From a virus, in the IMG/VR virus record IMGVR_UViG_3300010885_029022, positions 1-45,733 of that record: a DNA stretch of 45,733 bases; one strand, written 5' to 3'. Below the pieces are notes generated by a model. The model ran no database searches, had not been told where the DNA came from, and saw only the letters and a list, made by a program, of their open reading frames with translations. Positions 31,567 through 44,254 of this stretch are shown piece by piece (position 1 is the stretch's first letter; every line of letters begins with the position of its first letter). The translations under genes and the position numbers were made by a program.

Positions 31567-32307
31567 ATGAACGCTATTGTCGATATTTTTAACAAAGCAG
31601 AACGACTAGTTCAACATAACTCGTCATCAATTTTAACGGCGTTTGGTATCTCTGGTACAATAGGTACTGCATATTTAACAGGTAAAGCTTCGTTTAAAGC
31701 CGCTCATATTATTCAAGAAGAAGAGCGGTTAACAACAAAAAAAGTAGATCCTAAAGATGCAGTAAAGAAAGTGTGGAAACTTTATATTCCAGCTGGGGTA
31801 TCCGGCGTTGCCACAATTGCTTGTATTGTTGGAGTGTCTAAAATCGGTTCGCGACGGACAGCAGCTATCACAGCTGCATATTCTTTAAGCGAAAAGGCAT
31901 TTACCGAATACAAATCCAAAGTTGTAGAAACTCTCGGAGAAAAGAAAGAGAAGAAAATTCGAGATGAAGTATATGAAACTAAAATGTCAAATAATCCTCC
32001 TTCAAGCTCAGGTATTGTATTGGCGGGTACGGGCGACGTACTCTGCTGCGAGACTTGGACAGGACGATATTTTAACAGCGATATGGAAACCATCCGAAAA
32101 GCTGTAAATGTTATTAACGCCAAACTTAATAGAGAAATGGAAGCAACACTAAGCGACTTCTACTATCTAATTGGCATACCAACAACATCGTCGTCATCAT
32201 ATTCTGGGTGGAACTCAGATAAACTTATGGACTTAGATTTTTCCACCCTACTTCATGACGGACGGCCTTGTTTAGCATTCGAATACAATTACGTTAAGAT
32301 TTTGTGA
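31567..32307 (+). CDS. Two-span membrane protein (DUF6353-like)
   Basis: A 246-residue protein with two hydrophobic spans (about 22-40, ILTAFGISGTIGTAYLTG; about 72-90, LYIPAGVSGVATIACIVGV) separated by a charged helix, then GSRRTAAITAAYSLSEKAF and a cytoplasmic-looking domain. I believe this is the DUF6353 family of phage membrane proteins. A paralogue lies at 34449 (LYTPAVVLGTLSIAALTG, RRNTALTAAYATLSAAY). The C terminus has DFYYLIGIP...GW, a module also found in the proteins at 33644 and 34449. Function unknown; a membrane-anchored assembly is possible. Confidence 0.85.
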   Translation: MNAIVDIFNKAERLVQHNSSSILTAFGISGTIGTAYLTGKASFKAAHIIQEEERLTTKKVDPKDAVKKVWKLYIPAGVSGVATIACIVGVSKIGSRRTAAITAAYSLSEKAFTEYKSKVVETLGEKKEKKIRDEVYETKMSNNPPSSSGIVLAGTGDVLCCETWTGRYFNSDMETIRKAVNVINAKLNREMEATLSDFYYLIGIPTTSSSSYSGWNSDKLMDLDFSTLLHDGRPCLAFEYNYVKIL

Positions 32308-34448: not shown

Positions 34449-35306
34449 ATGAAATTTATACCAGAATCAATCACGCGAACAATCGGTCGTCAAATGATTA
34501 GCGTACAAAAGAACAGCCCACATATTTTGTTTGCAGCTGGCATTGTTGGTATCGTTGGCAGCACGGTGCTTGCTTCTCGAGCAACTCTTAAATTGAGCGC
34601 AGTTCTTGACGAAGCCGAGCACGAAATCACCGGCGTTAAGACCGAACTGAAGCACCGTAAGGGTCAATACCAAAAAGACTTAGCGTACGTCTACACAAAG
34701 AATACAATGGAAATTGTTAAATTGTATACGCCTGCTGTGGTCCTTGGTACGCTCTCAATCGCCGCTCTTACCGGATCGCATATTCAGTTGACGCGACGTA
34801 ATACGGCTCTTACAGCGGCTTACGCGACCCTCTCAGCGGCTTATGACAACTACCGTGATCGAGTTCGTAAAGAAGTTGGCGAAGAACGAGAGATGCATTT
34901 GTACCACAGCGCCACATTGGAAAAGATGATGGTTGCTGGTAAAAACGAAGAGGTTATGGTTGTAGACCCAAATACTTGGTCTCCTTACGCCCGACTCTTC
35001 GACGAGACATCAATTCAATACCACAAGAACGCGGAGTTAAACAAGCTGTTTATATTGGCTCAGCAAAACTACCTAAACGATTTGCTGCGTGCTCGTGGGC
35101 ATGTGTTTCTCAACGAGGCGTATGACGCACTTGGTTTAGAGCGTTCTACTGCCGGTGCAGTTGTCGGTTGGGTAATTGATGTGACCGGTGACAACTATAT
35201 TGACTTTGGTCTTTACAACAAGCAAAGTGCGCGGTTTACAAATGGTATTGAACGATGCGTTGTTCTTGACTTTAATGTTGACGGCGTTATATTTGATAAA
35301 CTTTAA
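34449..35306 (+). CDS. Two-span membrane protein (DUF6353-like), paralogue
   Basis: A 285-residue protein related to the one at 31567: hydrophobic spans at about 27-43 (LFAAGIVGIVGSTVLAS) and 92-110 (YTPAVVLGTLSIAALTG), a charged helix between, RRNTALTAAYATLSAAYDNYRDRV, then a soluble domain. The soluble end has VFLNEAYDALGLERSTAGAVVGW (219-241, shown here in parts) and IDFGLYNK, a module shared with the proteins at 31567 and 33644. It has an AGGAG site. Many C/G-ending codons suggest strong expression. Function unknown. Confidence 0.87.
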   Translation: MKFIPESITRTIGRQMISVQKNSPHILFAAGIVGIVGSTVLASRATLKLSAVLDEAEHEITGVKTELKHRKGQYQKDLAYVYTKNTMEIVKLYTPAVVLGTLSIAALTGSHIQLTRRNTALTAAYATLSAAYDNYRDRVRKEVGEEREMHLYHSATLEKMMVAGKNEEVMVVDPNTWSPYARLFDETSIQYHKNAELNKLFILAQQNYLNDLLRARGHVFLNEAYDALGLERSTAGAVVGWVIDVTGDNYIDFGLYNKQSARFTNGIERCVVLDFNVDGVIFDKL

Positions 35307-35323: not shown

Positions 35324-35965
35324 ATGAATTCTAGTATTTCGAATCTCCTCGCAAAAAAGTACGCTGTCCCCACACTTTGTGGGGCGGCGGTTCTTGCGAC
35401 TGGATTTACAGCAGTTTATATTTCACGTCAAATCCGCAATAAAAATGTAATTGTTGTGCCAGCAGAGGAGGTTACAATGCAAGACAGTTTTACTATTGAT
35501 CCTCAAGATCTGGAAATGCTTGTACCAATTGAAGGTTTGACAGAAGAAATTGATAATACGCCCGAAAGCGTAAACGTTTTTATGTCCGAAAGCGATGACT
35601 ATTGGGATTACGAGCATGAGCTTTCAATTCGTGATCCAGAATCCCCGTACGTTATTCATGCAGATGAGTACATAAATGATGAAATGGGTTTTCGTCAAAG
35701 CACAGTAACCTACTATGCTGGCGATGATATCATGGCAGATATGAGCGATACTCCAGTTTACAATTGGAATGCTATCATGGGTCCCTTAGAATGGGGGCAC
35801 GGCTCAAAGGATAAAAACGTTGTGTACATTCGCAACGAAAGATTGCGCAAGGAGTGGGAAGTCCTGCTCCACAGTGGCTCGTATGAGATTGAGGTAGCTG
35901 GTTTCCAAATGGAAAAAACATCTGGCGAACTTCAACACTCACTTCGGAAGTTTAGAGACGACTGA
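35324..35965 (+). CDS. Single-span membrane protein with conserved acidic domain
   Basis: A 213-residue protein: one N-terminal hydrophobic span (VPTLCGAAVLATGFTAVYIS, about 15-34) with a short basic tail outside it, then an acidic linker to about 95, then a conserved domain with YVIHADEYINDEMGF, VTYYAGDDIMADMSDTPV, PLEWGHGSKDKNVVYIRN and LQHSLRKFR. I know that domain from phage proteins of unknown role. AAAGGAG precedes the ATG, and the stop overlaps the next gene. It belongs with the membrane cluster. Confidence 0.85.
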   Translation: MNSSISNLLAKKYAVPTLCGAAVLATGFTAVYISRQIRNKNVIVVPAEEVTMQDSFTIDPQDLEMLVPIEGLTEEIDNTPESVNVFMSESDDYWDYEHELSIRDPESPYVIHADEYINDEMGFRQSTVTYYAGDDIMADMSDTPVYNWNAIMGPLEWGHGSKDKNVVYIRNERLRKEWEVLLHSGSYEIEVAGFQMEKTSGELQHSLRKFRDD

Positions 35966-36498
35966 TGCTAAACGAGCCAATTGAAGAAGTATATTTCAAC
36001 TGGCTCTATTTTAAAGTTGCCTACGAAATTAATCCAACGCCATCTTTGACGTTCTATACGTTATTGCGAGATTTGCACTCTACAGAATTTGTATGGCTGC
36101 TATCTGGTGATGATAATAGAGCTCAAGATGGGTTGGATATTCGTAGGGAATTCCTTAGAGAATCGTTTCTTGGTCAAGATTCACATTGGATGAACATTGG
36201 CTGTTCTGTTCTTGAGATGTTAATTTCATTATCACGAAAAGCTGAATTTGAAACGGAACTTACTGCTCGACAATGGTTTTGGATATTTATGACAAATCTT
36301 GAATTGTCTGAATTATCCGATGCAGAGTCAAACATATCGGGCAGAGTCAGTGAGATACTAGATGCATTTGTTTGGAGAACCTATCAACCCAATGGAGTTG
36401 GTGGTGCGTTTCCATTAAAACATCCAAGAGACGATCAACGACAAGTAGAAATTTGGTATCAATTCTACGCGTATCTTAATGAGAACGACATATTCTGA
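35965..36498 (+). CDS. Conserved phage protein, possibly replication-linked
   Basis: A 177-residue protein with YFNWLYFKV, TEFVWLLSGDDNRAQDG, GCSVLEMLISLSRKAEF, WFWIFMTNLEL, FVWRTYQPNGVGGAFPL and VEIWYQFYAYLNEN. It is unusually rich in Trp and Tyr. I recall this family beside replication genes in many phages, without an assigned role. It starts in the previous stop (TGATG) and ends ten bases before the replicase, so it may act with it. No catalytic motif is visible. Confidence 0.82.
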   Translation: MLNEPIEEVYFNWLYFKVAYEINPTPSLTFYTLLRDLHSTEFVWLLSGDDNRAQDGLDIRREFLRESFLGQDSHWMNIGCSVLEMLISLSRKAEFETELTARQWFWIFMTNLELSELSDAESNISGRVSEILDAFVWRTYQPNGVGGAFPLKHPRDDQRQVEIWYQFYAYLNENDIF

Positions 36499-36509
36499 AA
36501 GGGGGATAT

Positions 36510-39500
36510 TTGGACTTTTATCAGATTAGCCAAACAGAACCAAAGCAAGGTACGCCAAAGTGGTTCCCCGATTGGACTGTCGGGAGATCAAAAGATCTTA
36601 TGGTGCGTGGGCGATCGTTCTACGCAGTATGGGATGAACACAATGGTCTTTGGTCTACAGACGAGTATGATATTCAACGATTAGTTGATGAAGACTTGCA
36701 TCGGTATGCCAAAGAACAAGCGTCTAAGCAAAATGGCGTAAATTTCCCAGTAATGAATCTTAAATCATTTAATACTAGAATCTGGAGCACATTCCGTGCG
36801 TTTATGCTTAACATCAGTGACAATAGTCACCCTCTAGATGAAAAGCTTATATTTGCTAATACTGAAGTTAAGAAGACTGACTACGCAAGTCGTCGGCTGC
36901 CTTACGCATTAGAATCTGGGACGACCAACGCATGGGACGAACTCATGAATGTTCTATATTCTGATGATGAGTTAGCAAAAATTGAATGGGCAATAGGCGC
37001 GGTTGTTTCTGGAGACTCTAAAAAGATTCAGAAATTCCTTGTCTTTTATGGACCAGCTGGAAGTGGTAAGTCAACAGTACTAAACATTATTCAAGACATG
37101 TTTACGGGCTATGTTGCCACGTTTGATGCTAAAGCTCTTGGTAGCAGCAATAACGCATTTGCCACTGAGGTATTTAGGCATAACCCACTTGTTGCAATTC
37201 AACATGACGGTGACTTGTCTAAGATTGACGATAATACAAAACTAAACTCAATCATATCTCACGAAGAAATGACCATGAACGAAAAGTACAAACCGAGTTA
37301 CACTTCTCGAGTTAACGCTTTCTTATTTATGGGCACAAACCAACCAGTAAAAATCTCTGATGCCAAAAGCGGTATTATTCGACGCCTGATTGACGTGCAT
37401 CCAAGCGGTGCTAAAGTCGAGCCAGAACGATACAACGCTTTAATGCAGCAGATTGACTTTGAGCTAGGCGCAATTGCCTACAAGTGTCTAAAGCGTTATC
37501 AGGCAATGGGTAAAAACCACTACAACTCATATCGGCCGCTTGAGATGATGCTACAGACGGACGTGTTTTATAACTTCATTGAAGCATATTTTGACATGTT
37601 TAAAAAGCAGGATGGCGCATCACTCAAACAAGCTTATGAGTTGTATAAAGAGTATTGCTTAGATACTGGCATTGATAGGCTATTACCTCAATACAAGTTT
37701 CGTGAGGAACTACGTAATTACTTTGAATATTTTCACGACAAGATTGAGTTGGAGGGAATTATGGTTAGAAGCTACTACCAAGGCTTTAAAGATCTTACAC
37801 CACCGACGCCATTTAAGCCTCATGAATCATATTTGATTGAGTTTGGCGAACACACGTCAGTGTTTGATACTTTATGTGCTAACCAACCAGCACAGTATGG
37901 TAAAGAAAGTGGCTACCCTGGCAGGAAATGGGAGAGTGTTACCACAACTCTCTCAGATCTCGATACGGCAAAGCTTCATTTTGTAAAGGTACCAGAGAAT
38001 CATATTATCATTGACTTTGATTTAGTTGATGAGAATGGCGATAAAGACTTACTTCAAAATGTACGGGCTGCTTCATTGTGGCCACCAACATATTCTGAAT
38101 TGAGTAAAAGCGGTTCGGGCGTGCATTTACATTATTTCTTTACGGGCAATGTGCATGAGCTAGCAAATGTCTATGATGTCGGCATTGAGGTTAAAACACT
38201 TCTTGGCGACAGCTCATTACGTCGAAAGCTAACGCAGTGTAACACACTTGATATTTCTACAATAAGTAGCGGACTACCTAAGAAGGACAAACCTGTGCTT
38301 GATAATAGAACAATACAAAGCGAAAAGGGTTTACGCGATCTAATCGAACGGAACCTTAAAAAAGATATTCATCCAGGCACTAAGCCGTCAATTGACTTCA
38401 TTCACAAGATTTTAGAAGATGCGTATGCTGAGGACTTGCGTTATGACGTTCGAGATTTGCGACCTCGTATTTTAGCATTTGCTCTTGGAAGCAACAACCA
38501 ATCTACGGCATGTCTTAAGATCGTTCAAAAGATGCGGTTTGTGAGCGAGTCAGCGTTAGAGTTTCTCTACACAAATCTTTTAGTAGAGCAAGGCAACGAT
38601 AAAGAAGAACTACCTCTTGTTTTCTATGACGTAGAGGTATATCCTAACTTGTTTATTGTGTGCTGGAAATACGAAGACAAGCCAGAAGTTGTTCGGATGA
38701 TCAACCCAACCTCTCAAGAAATTGAGAAGTTATTTGCTTTGAAGCTTGTGGGCTTTAACAATCGAAGGTACGACAATCATATTCTCTACGCTCGCTTTCT
38801 TGGCGAGTCGTTAGAGGACCTGTACAACCGGTCACAAAAGATAATTAGCACAAACGAAGGTGGCTTGTTTGGTGAAGCGTACAACCTTTCTTACGCGGAT
38901 ATTTACGACTTTAGCTCAAAGAAGCAAGGTCTTAAAAAGTTTGAGATTGAGTTGGGTATTCATCACATGGAAATGGACTTGCCTTGGGATGAGCCAGTTG
39001 CCGAAGAGCTTTGGCCTTTGGTTGTTGACTATTGTGTTAACGACGTAGTTGCAACAGAGGCCGTGTTCAAAGACAGGAAGCAAGACTTCGTTGCTAGGTC
39101 TATCTTGGCTGAATTGTCTGGCTTGTCGGTTAACCACACAACACAGCAGCATACCGCTAAAATTATATTTGGCGCTGAAAAGTACCCTCAAAAGAGTTTC
39201 GTATACACCGATCTTAGTGCCATATTTAAGGGCTACAAGTTTGATGGACGCGAATCAACTTACCGAGGAGAAGTTGTTGGCGAAGGTGGGTATGTATATT
39301 CTGAGCCAGGTATCTATGAGAATGTAGCTCTACTTGACGTAGCAAGTATGCATCCAACATCAATTGAGGAACTTAACCTCTTTGGGCCATATACCAAAAA
39401 CTTTTCGGAACTTAAAGAAGCGCGTTTGGCAATTAAGCATAAGCAATACGAAAAGGCAGCCGGTTTGCTTGGCGGTAAACTTGCTAAGTTTCTTGATGGC

Positions 39501-40262
39501 GACAACAAGAATGCCGAAGGCCTTTCGTATGCTCTTAAGATTGTTATTAACATTGTCTATGGCCTTACCAGTGCCAAATTCAGTAACGCCTTCCGAGATA
39601 ACCGAAACGTAGATAACATCGTTGCAAAACGAGGTGCCTTATTCATGATAGACCTTAAGGACGAAGTCCAGAAACTAGGTTTTACAGTTGCGCACATTAA
39701 GACTGACTCAATCAAAATCCCAGATGCAACGCCAGAGATCATTGCGTTTGTCACAGAATTTGGCAAACGTTACGGTTATGACTTTGAGCATGAGGGAACG
39801 TATGATAAATTTTGTCTGGTTAACGATGCGGTATATATTGCAAGGGAAAAAGGTTCCTGGAACGCTGTCGGGGCACAATTTCAACACCCATATGTATTTA
39901 AGAAGTTGTTCACAGGTGAACCGGTTACATTCGACGACTTGTGCGAGACCAAAAGCGTCACACAAGGCGCTATGTACCTCGATTTCTCAAACCAACAAGT
40001 GGATATTGACCTTAAGGAGCTAGTGCATGTTGGCAGGACTGGAAGCTTTATTCCGGTTATATCTGCTGGAGCTACACTTTGGCGTATCAAAGACGGTAAG
40101 AAATATGCTGTCACGGGCACAAAGGGTTACCAGTGGGTTGAGCGAGAGATGGCGTTTGCACGTGAAGACTTGGATGTGGATTATTCGTACTTTGAAAATC
40201 TTAAAACGGCAGCGTTTGAAGCAGTAGATTTTTACGGAGTATTTGAGAAATTTGTCGAGTAG
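36510..40262 (+). CDS. Helicase-primase-polymerase fusion (SF3 + AEP + family B DNA polymerase)
   Basis: A 1250-residue replication protein with three parts. SF3/D5-type helicase (about 150-300): Walker A GPAGSGKST at 181-189, Walker B-like AIQHDGD (229-235), motif C FMGTNQP (273-279), and the Arg pair IIRRL (289-293). Primase-like AEP domain (about 470-600): IIIDFDL with Asp502 and Asp504, SGSGVHLH with His539, and Glu560. Family B polymerase: exonuclease YDVEV (Asp707, Glu709), GFNNRRYDN (748-756), YCVND (Asp845); polymerase motif A LLDVASMHP (941-949), motif B LKIVINIVYG (1009-1018), motif C IKTDS (Asp1066, with Lys in place of the first Asp). TTG start after AGGGGG. I know the parts from separate genes; this three-way joining is unusual. 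Confidence 0.92.
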   Translation: MDFYQISQTEPKQGTPKWFPDWTVGRSKDLMVRGRSFYAVWDEHNGLWSTDEYDIQRLVDEDLHRYAKEQASKQNGVNFPVMNLKSFNTRIWSTFRAFMLNISDNSHPLDEKLIFANTEVKKTDYASRRLPYALESGTTNAWDELMNVLYSDDELAKIEWAIGAVVSGDSKKIQKFLVFYGPAGSGKSTVLNIIQDMFTGYVATFDAKALGSSNNAFATEVFRHNPLVAIQHDGDLSKIDDNTKLNSIISHEEMTMNEKYKPSYTSRVNAFLFMGTNQPVKISDAKSGIIRRLIDVHPSGAKVEPERYNALMQQIDFELGAIAYKCLKRYQAMGKNHYNSYRPLEMMLQTDVFYNFIEAYFDMFKKQDGASLKQAYELYKEYCLDTGIDRLLPQYKFREELRNYFEYFHDKIELEGIMVRSYYQGFKDLTPPTPFKPHESYLIEFGEHTSVFDTLCANQPAQYGKESGYPGRKWESVTTTLSDLDTAKLHFVKVPENHIIIDFDLVDENGDKDLLQNVRAASLWPPTYSELSKSGSGVHLHYFFTGNVHELANVYDVGIEVKTLLGDSSLRRKLTQCNTLDISTISSGLPKKDKPVLDNRTIQSEKGLRDLIERNLKKDIHPGTKPSIDFIHKILEDAYAEDLRYDVRDLRPRILAFALGSNNQSTACLKIVQKMRFVSESALEFLYTNLLVEQGNDKEELPLVFYDVEVYPNLFIVCWKYEDKPEVVRMINPTSQEIEKLFALKLVGFNNRRYDNHILYARFLGESLEDLYNRSQKIISTNEGGLFGEAYNLSYADIYDFSSKKQGLKKFEIELGIHHMEMDLPWDEPVAEELWPLVVDYCVNDVVATEAVFKDRKQDFVARSILAELSGLSVNHTTQQHTAKIIFGAEKYPQKSFVYTDLSAIFKGYKFDGRESTYRGEVVGEGGYVYSEPGIYENVALLDVASMHPTSIEELNLFGPYTKNFSELKEARLAIKHKQYEKAAGLLGGKLAKFLDGDNKNAEGLSYALKIVINIVYGLTSAKFSNAFRDNRNVDNIVAKRGALFMIDLKDEVQKLGFTVAHIKTDSIKIPDATPEIIAFVTEFGKRYGYDFEHEGTYDKFCLVNDAVYIAREKGSWNAVGAQFQHPYVFKKLFTGEPVTFDDLCETKSVTQGAMYLDFSNQQVDIDLKELVHVGRTGSFIPVISAGATLWRIKDGKKYAVTGTKGYQWVEREMAFAREDLDVDYSYFENLKTAAFEAVDFYGVFEKFVE

Positions 40263-40582: not shown

Positions 40583-40745
40583 TCAATACCGACTTCTTCC
40601 AGAAAAAGGTGGAGTTTCTATTTTGTGTACCTCATGTGCTAGGTTATTGGATGAAAAGCCAACTAACCGAGCAGAAGTTATATTTGAATACATCACTTTC
40701 CATGAACTTTTAAATCATACAATTAAGGAGAATAATAATGGCTGA
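40572..40745 (+). CDS. Small unknown protein (57 residues)
   Basis: A 57-residue protein with one CTSC pair at residues 19-22, and a Glu-rich middle. The start overlaps the previous gene by 11 bases; the end overlaps the single-strand binding gene by eight bases. One CxxC pair alone is not enough for a zinc site, though two copies could share one. AAGGAA precedes the ATG. Unknown function. Confidence 0.62.
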   Translation: MRDNQYRLLPEKGGVSILCTSCARLLDEKPTNRAEVIFEYITFHELLNHTIKENNNG

Positions 40746-41199
40746 CGATCGAACGACAGTAACAATTGAGAACGCGCAACTCGTGTTCAAGAATTTCGCT
40801 GGGGCGGAGGGGCAGTATAACGCTGCTGGAGACCGAGAGTTCTCGGTTATCCTAGACCCAGAGAATGCTACTCTTATGGAGAAGGCTGGATGGAACGTAA
40901 AGTACCTGAAGGCTCGTGAGGAAGGCGATTCGCCGACTCCATATTTGCCAGTTAAGGTAAGCTTCAAAGTGCGGCCTCCAACGGTAGTTGTGATTACGTC
41001 AAGTGCTCGCACTCGATTGGACGAGAACTCTGTTGAGACGCTTGACTGGGCAGAAATTGAAAAGGCTGATCTTATTGTTACGCCATACGCTTGGACCGTT
41101 GGCGCAAAGAGCGGCATTAAAGCATATTTGAAGTCTTTGTACGTAACGGTTGTCGAAGACGAACTTGAGCTTAAGTACGCACAAAGGGAGGAAGTGTGA
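40738..41199 (+). CDS. Phage single-stranded DNA-binding protein
   Basis: A 153-residue protein of a known phage ssDNA-binding family. Signatures: VTIENAQLVFKNFAGAEGQYN, GDREFSVIL, AGWNVKYLKAREEGD, LPVKVSFKVRPP, TLDWAEIEKADLIVTPYAW and SGIKAYLKSLYVTVVEDELELKY. It protects unwound DNA during replication and fits its place after the replicase. Codons are G/C-richer than in neighbours, in line with the high copy number such proteins need. AAGGAG precedes the ATG, and its stop overlaps the next start. Confidence 0.9.
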   Translation: MADDRTTVTIENAQLVFKNFAGAEGQYNAAGDREFSVILDPENATLMEKAGWNVKYLKAREEGDSPTPYLPVKVSFKVRPPTVVVITSSARTRLDENSVETLDWAEIEKADLIVTPYAWTVGAKSGIKAYLKSLYVTVVEDELELKYAQREEV

Positions 41200-41279
41200 T
41201 GGGTAATATTGTAGCAGGTTTTGTTGTAACGCTTGTTAGCGTGATATTTGGATATAGCATGGGGAGGCACTCCTCATGA
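41199..41279 (+). CDS. Tiny membrane peptide (26 residues)
   Basis: A 26-residue reading frame: MGNIVAGFVVTLVSVIFGY then a short basic end. It has one membrane-length hydrophobic stretch. It is joined to both neighbours by overlaps (TGATG at its start, TCATGA at its end), with GGGAGG at 41186-41191 before the ATG. The overlaps and ribosome binding site favour a real gene despite its size. Function unknown. Confidence 0.6.
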   Translation: MGNIVAGFVVTLVSVIFGYSMGRHSS

Positions 41280-41638
41280 ACACTCTCGTATCTCATGCAC
41301 AAACAGAGCTGATCTTGATGCACGAAGACCCAATGACTATCTCTGGATATTTGGATGTGGTTCAGGCATGGTCAGACATGGGTGATTGGTCAAATGAAAG
41401 TATGCTTGAAATTCTTGTTAAGCTGCTTGAGTGGAAGAACTTAACGCCACTTACTAACAGCCCAAACGAATGGCTGCCAATGCCTATGGCATCAGGTCAA
41501 GATAGCATGCTTTGGCAAAGTGCTCGTAACGTTGAAGCATTTTCAACGGATGGTGGCGTAACATATTACTTGTTGGAGGAACGAGATCAAGATCCAAGCT
41601 CGTTCCATATTTCAGAAAAGGTTAATCCAATTGGCTGA
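41276..41638 (+). CDS. Unknown 120-residue soluble protein
   Basis: A 120-residue acidic protein. It has a run of helices (ISGYLDVVQAWSDMG, NESMLEILVKLLEWKNL) followed by NEWLPMPMASGQDSMLWQSARNVEAFSTDGGVTYYLLEERDQ, a probable small beta domain. The first 60 residues are helical and Trp-rich. I do not recognise it. It is translationally coupled at both ends by short overlaps and is probably an accessory early protein. Confidence 0.72.
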   Translation: MNTLVSHAQTELILMHEDPMTISGYLDVVQAWSDMGDWSNESMLEILVKLLEWKNLTPLTNSPNEWLPMPMASGQDSMLWQSARNVEAFSTDGGVTYYLLEERDQDPSSFHISEKVNPIG

Positions 41639-42769: not shown

Positions 42770-43144
42770 ATGGTAATTGTAGACATAGACCAAACGTTGC
42801 TATATGGCACATCTGGTATTAAAAAAGTGATAGACTATGTAAATAGTTTAGCTGCAACTAAGAAAATTGTCATTGTGACTGGGCGACCGGAATCTCAGCG
42901 AAAAGTTACAGAAGCTGCGTTGTCAAATAATGGCGTTAAATACAATCGGTTGATTATGAATCCTGGCTCAACCGCAACCTCAATCAAATACAAAACTGAG
43001 ACCGCAAAAGCTTTGCTTAAAACTGGCTCCGTTTATTTGGCTATAGATGATAACGTTAATGCACGACAAGCTTATCAAAGTCTTGGTATTCGTACAGTAA
43101 ATCCTAAATCTATGCAATACTCTCTTGGAAAGAAGCCCGCTTAA
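42770..43144 (+). CDS. HAD-family phosphatase-like protein
   Basis: A 124-residue HAD-superfamily protein: motif I DIDQT (Asp5, Asp7), motif II VTGR (36-39), and motif IV DDN (93-95). A Lys of the usual motif III lies between. There is no large cap domain, so it is a minimal HAD that probably acts on a large substrate such as a nucleic-acid end or a phosphoprotein. Polynucleotide 3'-phosphatase is one option. GGAG precedes the ATG. A deoxyribonucleotidase-type HAD follows one gene later. Confidence 0.83.
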   Translation: MVIVDIDQTLLYGTSGIKKVIDYVNSLAATKKIVIVTGRPESQRKVTEAALSNNGVKYNRLIMNPGSTATSIKYKTETAKALLKTGSVYLAIDDNVNARQAYQSLGIRTVNPKSMQYSLGKKPA

Positions 43145-43257
43145 TGGATATTATAGCAGATCTGTGTTTTATATTTGTGTATTGGGTAATGCGCACGTGG
43201 AAAAAGATTTTTGGCCCGCATGATGAAACACCAACAAAGGAAGTACGAACTAAATGA
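43144..43257 (+). CDS. Small membrane-associated protein (37 residues)
   Basis: A 37-residue protein with an N-terminal hydrophobic stretch (IIADLCFIFVYWVM, about 3-16) and a basic C terminus (RTWKKIFGP then KEVRTK). It is joined to both neighbours by overlaps (TAATG, ATGA), which favours a real gene. The hydrophobic part is short for a full membrane span. Function unknown. Confidence 0.6.
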   Translation: MDIIADLCFIFVYWVMRTWKKIFGPHDETPTKEVRTK

Positions 43258-43826
43258 ATACCGATCCACCAAAGCCGCTGCTTCTTCTTGATATGGACGG
43301 CCCTCTGGCAAACTTTGACAAAGCTTTATATGCCGTGTGTCAGCACTTAGGCATTGAGCTTAATATCAAAGGACTTAGCGACCCTAACCGTAAATACTAC
43401 ATGACTGATAACATGGTGCACGATCACGAAAAATTGATGATCCGTGACCTGTTAGACACAAGTCATTTCTTCCAGTATATTCCAGTAACCGACGGCGCCA
43501 TTGAAGGCGTTAAAGAGCTTATGGAATACTTTGACGTTTGGGTTTGCACAAAGCCTCTAGACGCAAATCAGTTTTGTCGAGACGATAAAATGTGGTGGAT
43601 AAGAGAGTATTTCCCAGCGCTTTCCTCCAAAGTGATCATGGCACCAAAAAAGTCATTGATATTTGGCCAAACGTTATTAGACGATGCGCCTGATCTTGAT
43701 TGTATTGACCGTGCATTGTGGAGACCAGTTGTGTTCTCCGATCAATTCAATGGACCAGGCAGTCAGTGGGCGCATCTACCACATTGGAGTTGGGGCGACT
43801 CAATTGATAATTTACGAAGGAGCTAA
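43254..43826 (+). CDS. 5'(3')-deoxyribonucleotidase (NT5C-like HAD)
   Basis: A 190-residue protein of the NT5C family: LLLDMDGPLANFDKAL (Asp13, Asp15), VWVCTKPL with the motif II Thr, a Lys in VIMAPKKSLIFG, and LLDDAPD (motif IV). These enzymes remove 5' phosphates from deoxyribonucleoside monophosphates and so tune dNTP pools. In phages they are seen with other nucleotide genes; here a second HAD protein and a DUF1599-like protein are nearby. It starts with an ATGA overlap on the small membrane gene. The family assignment is good; substrate preference is open. Confidence 0.88.
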   Translation: MNTDPPKPLLLLDMDGPLANFDKALYAVCQHLGIELNIKGLSDPNRKYYMTDNMVHDHEKLMIRDLLDTSHFFQYIPVTDGAIEGVKELMEYFDVWVCTKPLDANQFCRDDKMWWIREYFPALSSKVIMAPKKSLIFGQTLLDDAPDLDCIDRALWRPVVFSDQFNGPGSQWAHLPHWSWGDSIDNLRRS

Positions 43827-44059: not shown

Positions 44060-44132
44060 TCCTCTATAGCTCAGTTGGTAGAGCATCGGACTTTTAATCC
44101 GTGGGTCGCAGGTTCGAAACCTGCTGGAGGAA
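44060..44132 (+). tRNA. tRNA-Lys (anticodon UUU)
   Basis: A 73-base cloverleaf. Acceptor TCCTCTA (44060-44066) pairs with TGGAGGA (44125-44131) with one G-T pair; D arm GCTCAGTTGGTAGAGC; anticodon loop CTTTTAA with TTT; T arm GCAGGTTCGAAACCTGC. CCA is not encoded. It reads AAA/AAG. Confidence 0.96.
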
Positions 44133-44143
44133 CGCAATACTTA

Positions 44144-44227
44144 GCCCAGGTGGCGGAATGGCAGACGCAGAGGACTTAAACTCCTCCGTTCGTAATGGAC
44201 GTACGGGTTCGAATCCCGTCCCGGGCA
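44144..44227 (+). tRNA. tRNA-Leu (anticodon UAA)
   Basis: An 84-base tRNA with a long variable arm, as expected for leucine. Acceptor GCCCAGG (44144-44150) pairs with CCCGGGC (44220-44226) with one A-C mismatch; anticodon loop CTTAAAC with TAA; T arm ACGGGTTCGAATCCCGT. CCA is not encoded. It reads UUA, a codon common in the window's genes. Confidence 0.95.
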
Positions 44228-44254
44228 CTCACCAACAATAAAGGAGATATTCAA

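Follow-up and report, generated by a model that had tools for sequence, protein, structure and literature searches.

Can the helicase, the primase and the DNA polymerase of a phage reside in one and the same protein chain, and would such a chain be new? This is the question raised by a long gene at 36510-40262 (+) of the window, that is, the entire 45,733-base IMG/VR virus record analysed here, which carries terminase, portal, head-maturation protease, major tail protein, minor tail protein, and holin genes and therefore represents a tailed phage. Our results indicate that the gene almost certainly encodes a multifunctional phage replicase of the HelPrimPolB family (PHROG 4210; 1250 aa, TTG start), an assignment that draws directly on the intact frame, the folds predicted for its helicase and AEP regions, the conservation of catalytic residues, and full-length homology to a purified protein, GP55. 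The helicase-primase-polymerase arrangement itself is already known, widespread, and named, and has a characterised member.

The frame comprises 1250 uninterrupted codons (0 internal stops when translated), as a sequence-only reading of the locus had described it, and a strong Shine-Dalgarno-like stretch, GAAAGGGGG, can be read at 36497-36505 (+), just 5' of the TTG start. Residue 1 is also where the homologous match begins in nearly all complete relatives in the alignment, and PHROG 4210 (annotated as DNA polymerase) spans residues 1-1250 with a score of 1934 bits, well beyond what chance would produce. A frame or assembly artefact was considered and discarded: the full-length frame is continuous in nearly all of 80 IMG/VR loci, with the few partial matches located mostly at contig ends. 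With dozens of independent contigs all showing it unbroken, an artefact is unlikely.

As to novelty, the name HelPrimPolB was introduced by Kazlauskas et al. 2020 for a polymerase with an N-terminal fusion of SF3 helicase and PrimPol and with a divergent motif C (PMC7544198), the group having first been described, as cited there, in a 2016 analysis (Kazlauskas 2016, gkw322). Further, Zhang et al. 2025 purified and assayed a homologue, GP55 of Lactococcus phage 1706, which they termed a "four-in-one replicase": it shows UTP/dTTP-dependent helicase, RNA primase, polymerase, and 3'-5' exonuclease activities, dimerises via its helicase domain, and has >1000 homologues (PMC12205980). The novelty that the sequence-only reading had implied is thus lost. 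The window replicase is 39.8% identical to GP55 over 97% of its length, and all seven mapped GP55 residues (K189, D509, D712, E714, D949, Y655, and F667) are conserved, as K187, D504, D707, E709, D943, Y645, and F657, respectively. The two proteins share the order of SF3 helicase, PriS-like AEP, alpha-helical domain, and PolB with exonuclease, as well as a KTDS motif C; they differ in length (1317 aa for GP55 vs. 1250 aa here), in the Walker B stretch, which is divergent in GP55, and in the phages that carry them. Around GP55, tblastn found no counterpart of the upstream DUF6353, PHROG 4695, and PHROG 4678 genes. Compared to the HelPrimPolB group as a whole, the window replicase has the same domain order in one chain (SF3 helicase, then PrimPol/AEP, then family B polymerase), a PolB part with divergent motif C, and full-length homology with the catalytic residues kept; we found no feature that sets it apart.

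Nor is the three-domain order unique in the databases, a search that the earlier reading had proposed: among deposited genomes, 318 phage records match the replicase, the match covering at least 80% of its length in 252, and many are annotated as "DNA primase/polymerase". Gordonia phage Artorias gp62 and Rhodococcus phage ReqiPepy6 gp072, both from phages of actinobacterial hosts, share 62-63% identity with it over the full length and have the same architecture; they carry this annotation as well, without mention of a helicase-AEP split, and both COG3378 and PolB are noted in the ReqiPepy6 record. An apparent splitting of the replicase in Bingvirus (CricKo, Miek, and Bing, each matched in two pieces by tblastn) was examined and rejected, because CricKo has an intact gene and its additional fragment belongs to a short ATPase paralogue encoded separately. 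Such short separate ATPases, ~25-27% identical to the SF3 core (window residues 141-342), occur at L081:5974-6471 (CricKo gene 55) and L044:2897-3679, and both phages also have an intact replicase.

The N-terminal part, residues 1-430 (36510-37799, +), is an SF3 helicase module according to its predicted fold and motifs. These include Walker A (GPAGSGKST, residues 181-189, with K187), an acidic Walker B region (D233/D235), and arginine-finger candidates (R291/R292), and Pfam places PF19263 (SF3-type DUF5906) at residues 179-292 above the cut-off (E 5.7e-12). The AlphaFold2 model of residues 1-440 (m4aef42551532; pLDDT 86, 64 sequences) matches, over nearly its whole length, the SaPI5 primase-helicase (VIA Z 21.8), poxvirus D5 and ASFV PrimPol (both ~18), and the C-terminal region of NrS-1 (~17), and its fold also matches E1 and Rep40. 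The NrS-1, D5, and SaPI5 proteins, which provide the closest solved folds for the SF3 and AEP modules, likewise combine AEP and SF3 helicase in one chain; however, their AEP precedes the SF3 part and they have no family B polymerase, whereas SF3 precedes AEP in the window replicase.

The middle region has, in its predicted structure, an AEP fold, with an AEP (PriS-like) primase catalytic domain at residues ~447-595 (37848-38294, +). Structure prediction was the check by which the sequence-only reading had been prepared to see its primase assignment fall, and the assignment withstood it: the model of residues 430-700 (me409d05074a0; pLDDT 91.6, 67 sequences) finds its best solved match in the NrS-1 phage primase-polymerase (Foldseek E 5e-6; VIA Z 9.6 over 142 residues), followed by the pRN1 and CAPP prim-pols and eukaryotic PriS, and the superfamily motifs are present as DxD (D502/D504), SxxxxxxH (S532..H539), and a third acidic residue (E560). 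Behind it, between AEP and PolB as in GP55, the model shows five helices of an alpha-helical domain (aHD equivalent) at residues ~600-695 (38307-38594, +), in which Y645 and F657 occupy the positions of GP55 Y655 and F667. Fold search returned no convincing solved relative of this domain, and the middling matches to generic helical repeats are not claimed as kinship. The earlier description of a three-in-one protein thus stands for its three domains, which folds, profiles, and conservation bear out, but had missed this fourth segment. It could be argued that the AEP-like fold of the middle region serves only as a structural linker, with priming left to a host primase or another phage primase, since its sequence profile found no solved AEP and no Pfam AEP model matched the replicase. 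The same result had raised doubt about the AEP identity itself, which we dropped, as the fold search found what the sequence profiles had missed. The high-confidence match to NrS-1 PrimPol and the conservation of DxD, SxxxxxxH, and the glutamate all speak against a linker, and priming by GP55 requires both its PriS-like domain (D509A is the primase-deficient mutant) and its helical domain, where mutations of Y655 and F667 abolish primer synthesis (PMC12205980). We therefore consider a mere linker very improbable.

A similar question arises for the C-terminal part, residues ~701-1248 (38610-40253, +), which from its motifs and profile matches is a family B DNA polymerase with 3'-5' exonuclease. 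The motifs follow one another in the order of the family, i.e., Exo I-III (ExoI D707/E709; ExoIII Y841/D845), motif A (D943), motif B (K1010/N1014/Y1017/G1018), and motif C (residues 1064-1067, K1064-T-D1066-S), with lysine replacing the first aspartate of motif C. This part matches phrog_1252 (E 4.9e-45), and a profile search with residues 692-1248 retrieved E. coli Pol II (E 4.7e-8) as well as DNA polymerase alpha; the Pfam DNA_pol_B match is below the gathering score. The family B assignment accordingly combines the motifs, the matches to PHROG and to polymerase profiles, and the homology to GP55; the predicted folds cover the helicase and AEP parts. Because the alignment pairs K1064 with the first motif C Asp of E. 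coli Pol II, a position at which other family B enzymes also have Asp, the domain could be suspected of being inactive or a specialised translesion enzyme. Yet KTDS, which the sequence-only reading had correctly noted in place of DTDS, is no peculiarity of the window replicase: it is invariant or nearly so (at least 98%) in 79 family members and is also found in GP55, an efficient polymerase (PMC12205980). In addition, the protein retains D943 of motif A and D1066, the second aspartate of motif C, and primer-independent PolBs that have no first motif C Asp are highly active (PMC7544198). Since KTDS is so widely kept, including in an active polymerase, the alignments identify it as a family-wide trait and not a mark of inactivity; we rejected it as a sign of inactivation and regard an inactive or translesion-type domain as extremely improbable.

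Conservation extends over the whole HelPrimPolB-type replicase. An alignment of 79 full-length proteins revealed 218 near-invariant positions distributed over all domains, with Walker A K187, AEP D504, ExoI D707 and E709, and motif A D943 identical in 79/79, and D502, H539, E560, Y841/D845, K1010/N1014/Y1017/G1018, and K1064/T1065/D1066/S1067 in at least 98%. The positions previously given for Walker A (181-189), D502/D504, H539, ExoI (D707/E709), and KTDS (1064-1067) all proved accurate. Further, all three parts of the protein are under purifying selection because, in comparisons with the nearest relatives, dN is 0.13-0.26 in each part while dS is saturated or >2.

By homology to GP55, the SF3 module would open the duplex and provide strand displacement, the AEP domain together with the helical domain behind it would make a short RNA primer, the family B polymerase would extend this primer into DNA, and the replicase's own 3'-5' exonuclease would proofread. 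We infer from this analogy that the window replicase has each of the helicase, primase, polymerase, and exonuclease activities, and it would presumably work as a dimer. Its helicase may share the preference of GP55 for UTP/dTTP, but as GP55 diverges in the Walker B region, the two need not agree in this respect. With unwinding, priming, extension, and proofreading united in one polypeptide, such a protein amounts to a minimal replisome that can serve biochemistry and the amplification of DNA, as was already demonstrated with GP55 in 2025 (PMC12205980). To this, the window adds one well-supported HelPrimPolB relative as well as a set of genes that accompany the replicase in most relatives.

Specifically, a putative phage ssDNA-binding/single-strand annealing protein is encoded downstream at 40738-41199 (+; PF24083, E 2.5e-61; PHROG 4787, E 2.6e-61), and a gene of this kind follows the replicase in 77 of 83 related loci. 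Upstream are a PHROG 4678 gene at 35965-36498 (+; E 5.3e-58), found in 76/83 loci at a median distance of 130 bases, and a DUF6353 (PHROG 2152) gene at 34449-35306 (+; E 1.7e-71), found in 66/83; all these counts are lower bounds, as some loci are short. The ssDNA-binding protein is a likely replication partner and, by analogy, would assist the replicase, and all three families are natural candidates for accessory factors because they accompany the replicase in most relatives. No further helicase or primase gene was found by Pfam/PHROG scans among ~40 ORFs of the window, in agreement with the earlier reading. That the replicase and the ssDNA-binding protein alone form the complete phage fork in vivo, without host helicase, primase, or polymerase, is conceivable but rather doubtful; the de novo synthesis known for GP55 was observed on M13 DNA in vitro rather than in an infected cell (PMC12205980).

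Finally, a few other genes of the window deserve mention. DUF6353 (PHROG 2152) is present in two copies, 31567-32307 and 34449-35306, ~2 kb apart and both upstream of the replicase. A homologue of Tad3, a type I Thoeris inhibitor, at 41276-41638 (PF25185, E 4.4e-19) is, based on this match, likely an anti-defence gene; PADLOC gave no match to it, and it is present in only 2 of the 83 related loci. A HAD/PNKP-like phosphatase (42770-43144) adjoins a 5' deoxyribonucleotidase NT5C-like protein (43254-43826), both pointing to nucleotide metabolism, and an exonuclease-family protein is encoded at the left end (1039-2163; PHROG 284, E 2.6e-43), far from the replicase. Near the right end of the record, at 44060-44228, there are two adjoining tRNA genes, Lys (ttt) and Leu (taa).
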